A stretch of 64,000 nucleotides of DNA from Thermobifida alba (GTDB taxonomy: Bacteria; Actinomycetota; Actinomycetes; Streptosporangiales; Streptosporangiaceae). A program made the position numbers and the translations under genes. Below are positions 13,623 to 60,782 of the stretch, piece after piece. The first letter of the stretch is position 1. Each line of letters starts with the position of its first letter. Location of the stretch: contig NZ_CP051627.1 in the NCBI RefSeq assembly GCF_023208015.1, positions 4,632,422 to 4,696,421 of the forward strand, given 5' to 3'. The notes below the pieces were generated by a model, which did not search any database, had not been told where the DNA came from, and worked only from the letters and a program-made list of their open reading frames with translations.

Positions 13623-14588
13623 TCAATTCCTGGCTTGGACCCGCAGCAGCCTCACCCCGGCCCCCGCCCGCCGGTCGCCCTTGGTGAAGGAGCGCTCCAG
13701 CAGGTACTGGCCGATCATGAACACGCTGGTGATCGCCAGGTACCACAGGCACGCGGCGACCAGCATCGGGAACGGGTCGTAGGTACGGTTGCCGATGGCC
13801 TGCAACTGGAACCACAGCTCCGTGGTCAGCGGCACGTAGGCGACCAGGGACGTGTCCTTGAGCATCGCCGTGGCCTCGTTGCCGGTCGGCGGCACGATCA
13901 CCCGCAGCGCCTGCGGCAGCGTGATCCGGCGCAGTACCGTGAACCGCCGCATGCCCAGTGCCTGGGCGGCCTCGGTCTGGCCCGGGTCCACCGACTGCAG
14001 GCCCGCCCGCACGATCTCGGCCATGTAGGCGCCCTCCGACAGCGCGAGCGCCAACAGGGCCGCGACGAAGGGGGTGAGGAGGTCCCGGGTGTCGAAGGAG
14101 AAGAACCGGGCACCGGTGTCCAGGCCCAGCAGCGGCGCCCAGTAGTGGTCGAACGGCAGGCCCAGGTCGATGCGGTTGTAGAGCACTCCCAGGTTGCCGA
14201 AGAGCACGCACAGCACCAGGCGCGGCACCGCCCGGAAGAACCAGGTGTACAGCCAGCCGACCCCGGCCAGCACCGGGTTGCCGGACAGCCGCATGATCGC
14301 GACGACGACACCGACCAGGACGCCGATGAGCATCGCCAGCACGGTCAGCACGAGCGTGGTGCGCACCCCGAGGAGCACCGGCTCGGAGAACATGTTCGCC
14401 GCCATGAACGGCCAGTTGAACGCCTCGTTGGTGACGAGCATGTGCACGAACATGGCGGTGAGCACCAGCAGCACCCCGGCGGCGACCCAGCGGCCGGGGT
14501 GCCGGACCGGAACGGCCCGGATGAGTTCGGGGGCGCCCGTCCCGGGCGGGGAGGTCTCCGCCCGGGACGGACCGGTTCGCGTGTTCAC
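13623..14588 (-). CDS. Polar amino-acid ABC transporter permease (GlnP/HisM-type)
   Basis: The 321-residue membrane protein has an unusually long N-terminus with an extra early helix (about 35-58), then the standard five-helix permease core. The cytoplasmic EAA loop reads VDPGQTEAAQALGMRRFTVLRRITLPQALRVIVPP, which is diagnostic of the HisM/GlnP family, and ends before a final helix. Only one permease gene is present, so the channel is probably a homodimer. The start is GTG at 14588, 9 nt after the binding-protein stop. It co-operates with the lipoprotein and ATPase on either side. Confidence 0.9.
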   Translation of the reverse strand: MNTRTGPSRAETSPPGTGAPELIRAVPVRHPGRWVAAGVLLVLTAMFVHMLVTNEAFNWPFMAANMFSEPVLLGVRTTLVLTVLAMLIGVLVGVVVAIMRLSGNPVLAGVGWLYTWFFRAVPRLVLCVLFGNLGVLYNRIDLGLPFDHYWAPLLGLDTGARFFSFDTRDLLTPFVAALLALALSEGAYMAEIVRAGLQSVDPGQTEAAQALGMRRFTVLRRITLPQALRVIVPPTGNEATAMLKDTSLVAYVPLTTELWFQLQAIGNRTYDPFPMLVAACLWYLAITSVFMIGQYLLERSFTKGDRRAGAGVRLLRVQARN

Positions 14589-27051: not shown

Positions 27052-27211
27052 GTAACAGCAGGATGGCCGCTCCGTCACCGAAGGCCGGTATCGTAAACGG
27101 CAGGGAGCAGGCGGCCCCCAGTAACGCCTGTCTCAAAACGACCTTTTCGTGAACCCATCGCCCCCGTCTGCGCGTCAAATCGTTAGCGCTTGCAAAGTGT
27201 GGGGAGCGACG

Positions 27212-30200
27212 ATGCCAGGGGGCGACGAACTGAGCGAGAGCAGCAACGGCGACAACATTCCGCGCCCTGAGACCGAGGAAGCGACTGTCGCCGATTCTTC
27301 CGTGACAAGAGACGATGTGAACGGCAACGAGTCCGGTTCCGAGGACGACGCCGACCGTGTCGCCGAGGACGGAGACGCGACCGAGGACAAAGGCGAGCCC
27401 GAATGGTTCGCCTCGGACGGCGACTCCCCCTACCTTGAGGCCAGCGCCTTCAAGGACAGCGGCAGCTTCTTCCGGGACAGGGTGGCACGCAGCCTGGCCG
27501 AGGAGTACGGACTCGACTTCGACGAGAACGGAGGGAAGGGTACCGATCCCGTGAACGCCGACGGCGGGGACGAGCAGCGGTCCGACGACCAGGACGGACC
27601 GGCCGGGACCACGCCGCCGGCGGAGGACACCGACCAGGAGGCCGAGAGCTCCGGGTCGGTTGACGAGGAGGAGACTGAGCGGATCGGTTCGGGCTCCGGG
27701 TCGGTTGACGAGGAGGAGACTGAGCGGATCGGTTCGGGCTCCGGGTCGGTCGATGAGGAGGAGACTGAGCGGATCGGTTCGGGCTCCGGGTCGGTTGACG
27801 AGGAGGAGACTGAGCGGATCGGTTCGGGCTCCGGGTCGGTTGACGAGGAGGAGACTGAGCGGATCGGTTCGGGCTCCGGGTCGGTCGATGAGGAGGAGAC
27901 TGAGCGGATCGGTTCGGGCTCCGGGTCGGTTGACGAGGAGGAGACTGAGCGGATCGGTTCGGGCTCCGGGTCGGTTGACGAGGAGGAGACTGAGCGGATC
28001 GGTTCGGGCTCCGGGTCGGTTGACGAGGAGGAGACTGAGCGGATCGGTTCGGGCTCCGGGTCGGTCGATGAGGAGGAGACTGAGCGGATCGGTTCGGGCT
28101 CCGGGTCGGTCGATGAGGAGGAGACTGAGCGGATCGGTTCGGGCTCCGGGTCGGTTGACGAGGAGGAGACTGAGCGGATCGGTTCGGGCTCCGGGTCGGT
28201 CGATGAGGAGGAGACTGAGCGGATCCAGCCGTCCGCACCGGCCGCCGGACAGTCCTCCGGCCTCGACGAGGCCACCATCCAGGTCCCGGCCGTGGGAGCG
28301 GCCCCGGAACAGCCCGCACCCCCCTCCGCACCGACCTCCGAGACCACCGCGGTCTTCAGCCACAACCCGGCCGACCCCGGTTCCCGACGGCGCCCCCTGC
28401 CCCCACGCTTCATGAAGTCGGCCGGGCGGACGGGCGACTCCGGACCCGCCACCCCGCCCCCGCCCACCACCACCGCGGCGGGCGGCGCCGGCCCTGACGG
28501 CAAAGGCAAGAACAAGAAGGGCAAACCCAAACGCAAGAAACCGCTGTGGTGGCGCATCACCCGTGTCGGGCTGATCGCGGCGGTGCTCCTCGTCGGCCTC
28601 GTGGCCGGCGGCTTCGCCTACGCCTACACGGCCTTCGAGGTCCCCGACGCCGCCCAGGCCGACGCCACCGCGCAGGGCTCCGTCTTCTACTACGCCGACG
28701 GCTCGGTCCTCACCGAACGCGGCGTCAACCGCAAGCCCGTCTCCCTCGACAGCGTTCCCGAACACGTCCAGAACGCCATCCTCTCCGCGGAGAACCGCGG
28801 CTTCTGGGACGAGCCGGGCGTCTCCCTCACCGGTACGGCGCGCGCGGTCTGGTCCACCGTCACCGGAAAGCAGGTCCAGGGCGGGTCCACCATCACCCAG
28901 CAGTTCGTGCGCAACTACTACGAGGGACTCAGCCAGGAGCAGACCATCGAGCGCAAGCTCAAGGAGATCATCATCGCGCTCAAGGTCGACCGCTCCCAGC
29001 CCAAGGAGTGGATCCTGGAGCAGTACCTCAACACCATCTACTTCGGGCGCAACGCCTACGGTATCCAGGCCGCAGCCGAGGCCTACTACGACAAGAACGT
29101 CGGCGACCTCACCCCCGACGAGGCGGCGTTCCTGGCCGCGGCCATCCAGCAGCCCACCAAGTTCGGGTTCGCCGACAGCGACACCACGCCCGAGATGGAG
29201 AACCGCTGGGAGTACGTGGTCAACGGCCTGGTGGACATGGGGTCCATCACCGAGGCCGAGGCCGCGGAGTACGAGTTCCCCAAGCCGCTGCCGGAACGGC
29301 CCCAGGACAACATCGACCTGAGCGGCTACAAGGGCTACATGTTCCAGCAGGCCATGAAGGAGCTGGAGGAGCTCGGCTACAGCGAGGACAACATCAACCG
29401 GGGCGGCTACGAGATCCACACCACCTTCGACCCGGACCTGATGGAGGCGGCCTACGAGGCCGTGCAGGAGACCGTGCCCGTCGACGACCTGCCGGAGGGG
29501 GTGCGGGTCGGACTCAGCGTGGTCGACCCGTCCACCGGAGGAGTGGTGGCCTTCTACGGGGGCCAGGACTACTTCGAGAACCAGTACGACAGCGCGTTCC
29601 TGGGCACCGCGCAGGCGGGGTCGGCGATGAAGCCGTACGTGCTGGCCGCCGCCCTCAAGGACGGGCTGGGGCTGTACACCGTGGTGAACGGCAACGGGCC
29701 GCGGTACATCAACGGCACCATGATCCAGAACGCGGGCAACGCCCCCGGTGGCGCGATGAACCTCATCCAGGCCACCACCGTCTCCAACAACCTCGGCTAC
29801 ATCGACCTGGCCGAGCGGGTCGGACTGGAGAAGGTCGCCGAGACCGCCTACGACATGGGGCTGCCCGAGGGCAGCATCGACCTGGTGCCGGTGCTGCCGC
29901 TGGGCGCCAACAGCGTGAGCCCCACCGACCAGGCGGGCGGCTACGCCACCTTCGCCAACGGCGGCGAGCACATCGAGACGCACGTCGTCTCCTCCATCAT
30001 CAACAAGGAAGGGGAGGAGGAGCGCCCCGAACCGGAACGCAAGCGGGTGCTCACCGAGGAGCAGGCGGCCGACGCCACCTATGCGATGCGCCAGGTGATC
30101 AACTCGGGTACCGGCACCGCGGCCGGTATCGGACGCCCCGCGGCGGGCAAGACCGGGACCACCAACGGCAGCGTCGCCGCCTGGTTCGTCGGCTACACGC

Positions 30201-30619
30201 CGCAGCTGTCCGCGGCGGTGGGCATCTACAGCGGCGACAACGAGAGGTTCTCCGTGCCCGGCTGGGGCACCCTGTCCGGCGGCACCCTCCCGGCGACGGT
30301 GTGGCGCACCTTCATGCAGAAGGCACTGGAGGGCGAACCCGTCAAGGACTTCCCCTCGCCGACGTTCGGCGGATCATCGCCGAACTGGGCGCCGGCGCCC
30401 GAACCGGAGGAAACCACGACGGACGAGAGCACCTCCGAGGAGTCGGCTCCGGAGAACGGGCAGCCCGCGGTCCCCGCACCCGAGGTGCCCCAGCCCGTGG
30501 TTCCCGAGCCCGTGGTCCCCGAGCCCGTGGTCCCCGAGCCCGAGGTGCCCCAGCCCGGCATCCCGCCCCCCGGAGACCCCGGAAGCGGAACGACCGAGGG
30601 GTGGTCGCCGACAGGCTGA
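27212..30619 (+). CDS. Class A penicillin-binding protein with a 13-fold acidic Thr-repeat cytoplasmic tail
   Basis: The 1135-residue bifunctional peptidoglycan synthase has a very long cytoplasmic N-terminus (1-450), one membrane anchor (about 451-473), a GT51 glycosyltransferase and a transpeptidase. GT51 shows the catalytic Glu527 in AENRGFW and GGSTITQQFVRN. The transpeptidase shows SAMK (Ser804, Lys807), a SNN motif and KTGTT at 980. The extracellular tail is Pro-rich with PVVPEP repeats. Residues 144-338 are thirteen tandem 15-mers with core SVDEEETERI, each with one Thr preceded by three Glu and followed by Ile at +3. Two similar motifs follow at Thr355 (DEATIQV) and Thr378/379 (SETTAVF). 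I chose ATG 27212, with GGGGAG upstream; GTG 27149 is an in-frame alternative. Phosphorylation of class A PBP tails by PknB-type kinases is known in mycobacteria. Confidence 0.92.
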   Translation: MPGGDELSESSNGDNIPRPETEEATVADSSVTRDDVNGNESGSEDDADRVAEDGDATEDKGEPEWFASDGDSPYLEASAFKDSGSFFRDRVARSLAEEYGLDFDENGGKGTDPVNADGGDEQRSDDQDGPAGTTPPAEDTDQEAESSGSVDEEETERIGSGSGSVDEEETERIGSGSGSVDEEETERIGSGSGSVDEEETERIGSGSGSVDEEETERIGSGSGSVDEEETERIGSGSGSVDEEETERIGSGSGSVDEEETERIGSGSGSVDEEETERIGSGSGSVDEEETERIGSGSGSVDEEETERIGSGSGSVDEEETERIGSGSGSVDEEETERIQPSAPAAGQSSGLDEATIQVPAVGAAPEQPAPPSAPTSETTAVFSHNPADPGSRRRPLPPRFMKSAGRTGDSGPATPPPPTTTAAGGAGPDGKGKNKKGKPKRKKPLWWRITRVGLIAAVLLVGLVAGGFAYAYTAFEVPDAAQADATAQGSVFYYADGSVLTERGVNRKPVSLDSVPEHVQNAILSAENRGFWDEPGVSLTGTARAVWSTVTGKQVQGGSTITQQFVRNYYEGLSQEQTIERKLKEIIIALKVDRSQPKEWILEQYLNTIYFGRNAYGIQAAAEAYYDKNVGDLTPDEAAFLAAAIQQPTKFGFADSDTTPEMENRWEYVVNGLVDMGSITEAEAAEYEFPKPLPERPQDNIDLSGYKGYMFQQAMKELEELGYSEDNINRGGYEIHTTFDPDLMEAAYEAVQETVPVDDLPEGVRVGLSVVDPSTGGVVAFYGGQDYFENQYDSAFLGTAQAGSAMKPYVLAAALKDGLGLYTVVNGNGPRYINGTMIQNAGNAPGGAMNLIQATTVSNNLGYIDLAERVGLEKVAETAYDMGLPEGSIDLVPVLPLGANSVSPTDQAGGYATFANGGEHIETHVVSSIINKEGEEERPEPERKRVLTEEQAADATYAMRQVINSGTGTAAGIGRPAAGKTGTTNGSVAAWFVGYTPQLSAAVGIYSGDNERFSVPGWGTLSGGTLPATVWRTFMQKALEGEPVKDFPSPTFGGSSPNWAPAPEPEETTTDESTSEESAPENGQPAVPAPEVPQPVVPEPVVPEPVVPEPEVPQPGIPPPGDPGSGTTEGWSPTG
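27641..28225 (+). repeat. In-frame 45-bp tandem repeat, 13 units
   Basis: The unit encodes GSGSGSVDEEETERI. The first copy starts imperfectly (AESSGSV). Units are otherwise identical apart from one two-base alternation, GTTGAC (A) or GTCGAT (B), both encoding Val-Asp. The order is A A B A A B A A A B B A B. Near identity at the DNA level points to recent expansion or homogenisation. It lies wholly inside the PBP gene. Confidence 0.97.

Positions 30620-58967: not shown

Positions 58968-60782
<1,815 letters not shown>

Follow-up and report, generated by a model that had tools for sequence, protein, structure and literature searches.

A threonine-motif array on a class A PBP tail in Thermobifida alba and its possible reading by FHA proteins

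The 64,000-nucleotide window of the Thermobifida alba genome analysed here encodes a class A PBP that carries, ahead of its membrane helix, thirteen closely similar units, each with a threonine preceded by a run of glutamates. This raises the question of whether the array serves the peptidoglycan synthase, for example as a set of phosphorylation sites read by FHA proteins, or whether slippage of the DNA has simply multiplied a stretch of acidic sequence.

The gene and its 45-bp array

The open reading frame (27149..30619, + strand) may start at either GTG 27149 or ATG 27212. Pfam places a transglycosylase domain (PF00912, Transgly, E 6e-55) at 28718..29224 (residues 524-692) and a transpeptidase domain (PF00905, E 1e-28) at 29519..30205 (residues 791-1019). 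Both are on the + strand and follow a single transmembrane helix (28565..28627, +), located by eye after a Lys/Arg-rich stretch; this is the organization of a class A (i.e. bifunctional) PBP. From the sequence, and from what is usual in class A PBPs, we take the N-terminal tail to be inside the cell and the enzyme outside. The encoded protein includes MPGGDELSES, which is common to T. alba, T. fusca and a further Thermobifida genome (G002). The tail also contains the motif SAFKDSGSFFRDRVARSLAEEYG (27443..27511, +), found by pattern search in related tails; the pattern is present in 19 of 21 of these, and is absent from one locus that is open at its 5′ end (L071) and one with a shorter frame whose start is unchecked (L057). 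This may be a separate docking motif. At its C-terminus the same protein has a Pro-rich tandem repeat, VPEPVVPEP, at 30461-30557.

The array (27641..28225, +) lies between the conserved motif and the membrane helix. TRF reports it as a single 45-bp repeat at 27648-28225 with 12.8 copies, 97% matches and a score of 1086. This is the strongest repeat of the window, the remaining 11 TRF rows scoring 50-145. A preliminary description of this DNA had counted thirteen identical 15-mers. There are indeed thirteen SVDEEETERI cores, but the first 15-mer is AESSGSVDEEETERI, which is identical only in part to the GSGSGSVDEEETERI of the other twelve. Each core has Glu at -3 to -1 of its Thr and Ile at +3, and the threonines fall at residues 155, 170 and so on to 335, as originally described, provided that the protein starts at ATG 27212; counted from GTG 27149 they are residues 176-356. 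Two linked synonymous changes are the sole DNA differences among the cores, which read GTTGAC or GTCGAT at that place (in the order AABAABAAABBAB). Such near-identity of DNA units is expected after recent slippage and was seen for the T. alba array only, most units of T. fusca and G002 differing among themselves. The copy number in T. alba has thus probably drifted by recent 45-bp slippage, and may be an accident of slippage on top of a selected motif.

Two variant sites follow the array, where the preliminary description had placed them. DEATIQV (28265..28285, +) has counterparts in three other Thermobifida genomes, i.e. DEATVQI in T. fusca, DEATVQV in G002 and DETTVHI in T. cellulosilytica; SETTAVF (28337..28357, +) corresponds to ETTAVF or ETTAVL in the same three. 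The array has 13 matches to the DNA pattern for [DE][DE]-T-E-[QHR]-hydrophobic and the rest of the 4.9-Mb genome has four, while a backward control pattern occurs twice. The four outside matches look unrelated by eye and were set aside as chance; named without a family search, they are a regulator of PadR type, a short frame and two proteins resembling a glycoside phosphorylase and a citrate synthase. In another class A PBP of T. alba (L098, G000:C1:3819216-3821312, minus strand) the tail is charged and repetitive (DDFDDRPRR), with eight Thr in 307 residues and no occurrence of the motif.

Charge and hydropathy predict the tail and the array to be disordered (mean hydropathy of 0.379 for the tail and 0.368 for the array, the boundaries being 0.474 and 0.511), and the enzyme part to be folded (0.461, above its boundary of 0.437). 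Several threonines with a hydrophobic residue at +3 are therefore found within a region of predicted disorder, as expected for a cluster of FHA ligands.

Conservation of the threonine core

At a threshold of E <= 1e-60, 88 of 100 genomes have PBPs of this kind, a count that includes other PBPs of those genomes. Acid-Thr-x-x-[ILV] sites are present in the orthologous tail of all four Thermobifida genomes, with spacers and copy numbers that vary. The preliminary description had proposed a search of actinobacterial PBPs for such arrays and held that their absence from all related strains, together with a lack of FHA binding, would count against it; sites of this kind turn out to be kept in all four genomes. 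The T. fusca tail has 12 sites in 11 distinct 15-mers, and that of G002 has four copies of EEDTER[LV] plus single sites. In T. cellulosilytica two units precede a run of 499 N, with DETTVHI and ETTAVF after it; the simplest reading of the run is an assembly gap in the repeat, masking being the alternative. A query of three window cores matched only the T. alba genome among the four, so that each lineage has a sequence and copy number of its own but retains the core.

Sites were counted by a fixed rule (two acidic residues within -4 to -1 of Thr, and a hydrophobic residue at +3) and compared with shuffled sequences, the identical units of the T. alba tail having been collapsed beforehand. T. 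fusca has 12 such sites against 0.94 in shuffles, G002 seven against 0.90, and the collapsed T. alba tail three against 0.40. The 12 T. fusca sites use ACG, ACC and ACT for Thr and CTC, CTT, ATC and ATA for the Leu or Ile at +3, in varying flanks. To avoid counting just those sites selected by the rule, we also searched for near-copies, i.e. windows one position off a five-position core. Full matches to this core number two in the collapsed T. alba tail, 11 in T. fusca and five in G002 (shuffles 0.005-0.014). The near-copies number one, one and zero, and none is off at the Thr or at +3, in a search that misses units at least two positions off. Within these three tails and this one-off search, the decay of the core alongside diverging spacers that a neutral minisatellite predicts was not found. 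A core kept while its spacers change is what selection on a protein motif would predict, and slippage alone would not.

For the wider comparison, 21 tails from 38 loci (L037-L074) were used in the site counts, the Thr/Ser comparison and the tail-motif search. The 17 omitted are short-tail members (L055, L056, L058-L066), the T. cellulosilytica copies with the N run (L040, L074) and same-locus duplicates (L042, L067, L068, L070). The upstream frames of two short-tail members, L059 and L065, are longer and appear to be non-coding; L057 and L071, incomplete or short, were kept. With repeated 9-mers removed first, a hydrophobic residue stands at +3 of 29 of 90 Thr in the three Thermobifida tails, against 12 of 106 Ser (Fisher p 4e-4). 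Other offsets from Thr average 7.8 hydrophobic residues against the 29 at +3, a number reached by none of 1000 shuffles. In the 18 other tails the figures are 69/531 for Thr and 46/756 for Ser (p 3e-5), again reached in 0/1000 shuffles, although the tails are related by descent and the shuffle tests overstate their independence. Part of this signal is a motif WDPEGTA[EQA]F, of which the PBP tails of several other genera have one to three copies; when WDPE[GS]T sites are left out, 63 of 525 Thr still have the hydrophobic residue, and 0/1000 shuffles reach this. Taken individually, seven of the 21 tails are significantly enriched in acid-Thr-x-x-hydrophobic over their own shuffles and 14 are not, four of them having no site. 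In the 18 non-Thermobifida tails acidity is not linked to the +3 hydrophobic residue (0.94 against 0.97 acidic residues).

The motif was also sought on other proteins. A piece of the T. fusca array matched five of 296 genomes of the class, two of them Thermobifida; two of the matches (L135, L136) fall in frames resembling antisense noise. A scan over 297 genomes of the family matched four, three of them already known, and L181 proved on checking to have no array. The PBP of Actinorugispora (G044) lacks such an array and has a single WDPEGTAEF. In that genome, one of the five matched in the class, a small two-helix membrane protein (L139/L134, G044:C6, ~271687-272850) has 12 acid-Thr-x-x-hydrophobic sites, five of which are EETERITP. 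Relatives of this protein occur in 17 of 80 genomes (G044 included), and most share RTDGLGKASV and a long acidic tail. Outside Actinorugispora they have zero to five such sites each, and the +3 peak is weak there (Thr 19/138 and Ser 12/126 in Thermobifida, Thr 34/300 and Ser 25/294 in the others).

FHA proteins, kinases and the RodA tail

All four Thermobifida genomes encode four FHA domains each. Two of those of T. alba are in a cluster FhaA-FhaB-PstP-RodA-PbpA-PknA-PknB, in which PknB has PASTA domains; FhaA, the FHA domain of FhaB, RodA/FtsW, PbpA and both kinases were named by Pfam, and PstP by a short motif and its position. The FHA domain of T. alba FhaA matches the solved M. tuberculosis domain TB39.8 (E 2.5e-18), the domain of FhaA, and keeps GRG, SR-H and NSTNGT, the signature of phospho-Thr binding. 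The GarA-like protein of the genome carries ETTSTI.

The end of RodA, which adjoins the FHA genes (L094, G000:C1:3764001-3783000, near 13720), has an acidic Thr-x-x-hydrophobic motif of its own. We read RodA tails at 50 loci (L102-L131, L158-L177) among the 98 genomes with a match, i.e. the 30 best-scoring in the family and 20 from the order and class picked to cover families. Thr-x-x-[ILVFM] is present in the last 22 residues of 30/30 family and 20/20 order or class tails, with shuffled means of 5.5 and 6.1. An acidic residue lies at most five positions before it in 30/30 and 19/20, respectively. Most family members have the form IQDEGxTQV-hydrophobic, and the remainder a looser one. No report of the RodA tail motif as an FHA site was found in the open-access literature searched. 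Were it phosphorylated, the whole class would have one mechanism in common.

The preliminary description had regarded the array as matching the preference of PknB-type kinases, and had put forward a kinase encoded in the window (58968-60782). The second proposal finds no special support; Pfam gives that protein a kinase domain and no PASTA domain, and the stronger candidates are the two kinases of the FHA cluster, PknA and PknB. As to the first, the core fits published mycobacterial motifs in part. In one study the pThr sites that depend on PknA show Pro at -1 and +2, Leu or Val at +3, a basic residue at +4 and acidic residues at -1 and from -3 to -6, and no position is significant in the PknB set (PMC7164672). 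The array has in common with the PknA-dependent motif the acidic residues at -1 and -3 and the hydrophobic residue at +3, and lacks its Pro and basic positions. Glu-x-x-pThr is reported among sites lost upon kinase inhibition (PMC5845002).

Interpretation and comparison with known systems

What has to be explained is an array conserved across the genus, a preference for a hydrophobic residue at +3 that is specific to Thr, the presence of kinases and FHA proteins and a similar motif on RodA. A neutral minisatellite, in which 45-bp slippage in an acidic disordered tail multiplies whatever is present and the Thr motif is a passenger, would account well for just two linked synonymous changes among thirteen cores; the repeated charged tail, without such motifs, of another class A PBP of T. 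alba and the Pro-rich repeat of the same protein speak in its favour. It sits poorly with the T. fusca core being kept in diverged units with codon changes, with other species keeping the core between different spacers, with the one-off search having seen no near-copy without Thr or +3 (units at least two positions off being missed), with the difference between Thr and Ser at +3 and with the recurrence of the core on another protein of the sister genus. We judge it quite unlikely. An acidic entropic spacer or polyampholyte in which Thr has no role would agree with the disorder predicted from charge and hydropathy, but such a spacer needs neither a conserved Thr nor the hydrophobic residue, and neither is lost in the near-copies found; this we consider very unlikely.

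Harder to separate is a tail phosphorylated as a kinase substrate without FHA binding, where the charge of the phosphate would tune the enzyme or its contacts with membrane or partners, as proposed for PonA1. Phosphorylation of the PonA1 tail alters elongation, and FHA or FhaA is absent from the main text of that report (PMC4483258); the array moreover fits kinase motifs as well as it fits FHA motifs. The +3 preference does not distinguish these two readings because kinase and FHA motifs share it. Repeated units with single threonines and FHA genes beside RodA would favour recruitment. A tail phosphorylated without FHA binding seems to us unlikely.

We consider it on balance somewhat probable, from the sequences compared here, that the PBP tail works as a platform of multiple phospho-Thr sites through which FHA proteins are recruited to the peptidoglycan synthase. 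The acid-Thr-x-x-[ILV] cores would be phosphorylated on Thr by Hanks-type kinases, of which PknA and PknB of the FHA cluster are the likeliest, and FHA proteins, FhaA or FhaB first and possibly the GarA-like protein, would then bind phospho-Thr plus the +3 hydrophobic residue. Multiple copies could confer avidity or a graded response, and the class A PBP would thereby be tied to the RodA-PbpA elongation machinery, in which the end of RodA bears a similar motif. The multivalent phospho-switch recruiting FHA partners that was suggested in the preliminary description accords with the core kept in 4/4 Thermobifida genomes, the Thr-specific +3 position and the FHA/kinase cluster; phosphorylation, binding and the effect on synthesis are its predicted parts. 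Speaking against it are the 14 of 21 tails that show no enrichment of their own, the missing link between acidity and the +3 residue outside Thermobifida, the weak +3 peak among relatives of the two-helix protein, the Pro and basic positions of the PknA-dependent motif that the array does not have, the PknB set without a significant position and the near-identity of the T. alba units in DNA. Multisite phosphorylation read by FHA proteins is our best reading, as the most economical mechanism.

More tentatively, Actinobacteria might share one docking code, acid-Thr-x-x-hydrophobic, for the FHA proteins of the PknA/PknB cluster. RodA would carry it once, at its end, throughout the class, and the Thermobifida lineage would have multiplied it into arrays, one genus on a class A PBP and its sister genus on a two-helix scaffold. 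This is possible, though we would not expect it. If it held, phosphorylation would bring SEDS and class A synthases together at the growth site in a single complex, multivalent and dose-dependent; the route from PASTA-kinase signalling to actinobacterial peptidoglycan synthases is known only in part. The thirteen nearly identical sites offer an easily measured handle, because trypsin should free IGSGSGSVDEEETER twelve times per chain and site occupancy could thus be read directly.

The titles and abstract openings of the open-access literature searched describe no FHA-ligand array on a PBP, and the parallels lie in single features of other systems. SETTAVF resembles the ETTSVF-type motif at the N-terminus of GarA/OdhI in having Thr-Thr-x-x-Phe/Ile in an acidic context; a difference is that in GarA/OdhI the FHA domain of the same protein binds the motif. 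MDC1 has four TQXF sites that are read after phosphorylation by the FHA domains of RNF8 and Pellino, and so resembles the array in placing several Thr-x-x-hydrophobic sites on one scaffold; it belongs to eukaryotic DNA repair, with four motifs and ATM as the kinase, and no homology is claimed (PMC11884936). Closer in enzyme type is mycobacterial PonA1, a class A PBP whose cytoplasmic tail is long, like that of the T. alba protein, and in which phosphorylation of T34 by PknB slows elongation. In the parts of that paper cited here PonA1 has one reported site (T34; T50 in M. smegmatis), its tail is called unconserved and an array is unmentioned; Thr phosphorylation is demonstrated for its tail and predicted for that of T. 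alba (PMC4483258).

A parallel to the proposed recognition is offered by FhaA itself. FhaA and FhaB have been reported in one operon with rodA, pbpA, pknA, pknB and a phosphatase (PMC11898655), and pT382 of CwlM, which has Phe at 385 (i.e. at +3), binds the FHA domain of FhaA (PMC6180346). CwlM and MviN differ from the array in that CwlM has one or two sites and neither ligand is a PBP, as these sources present them; their binding to FhaA in M. tuberculosis is phospho-dependent and acts in the control of the cell wall, as we propose for the T. alba tail (PMC6180346, PMC11898655).
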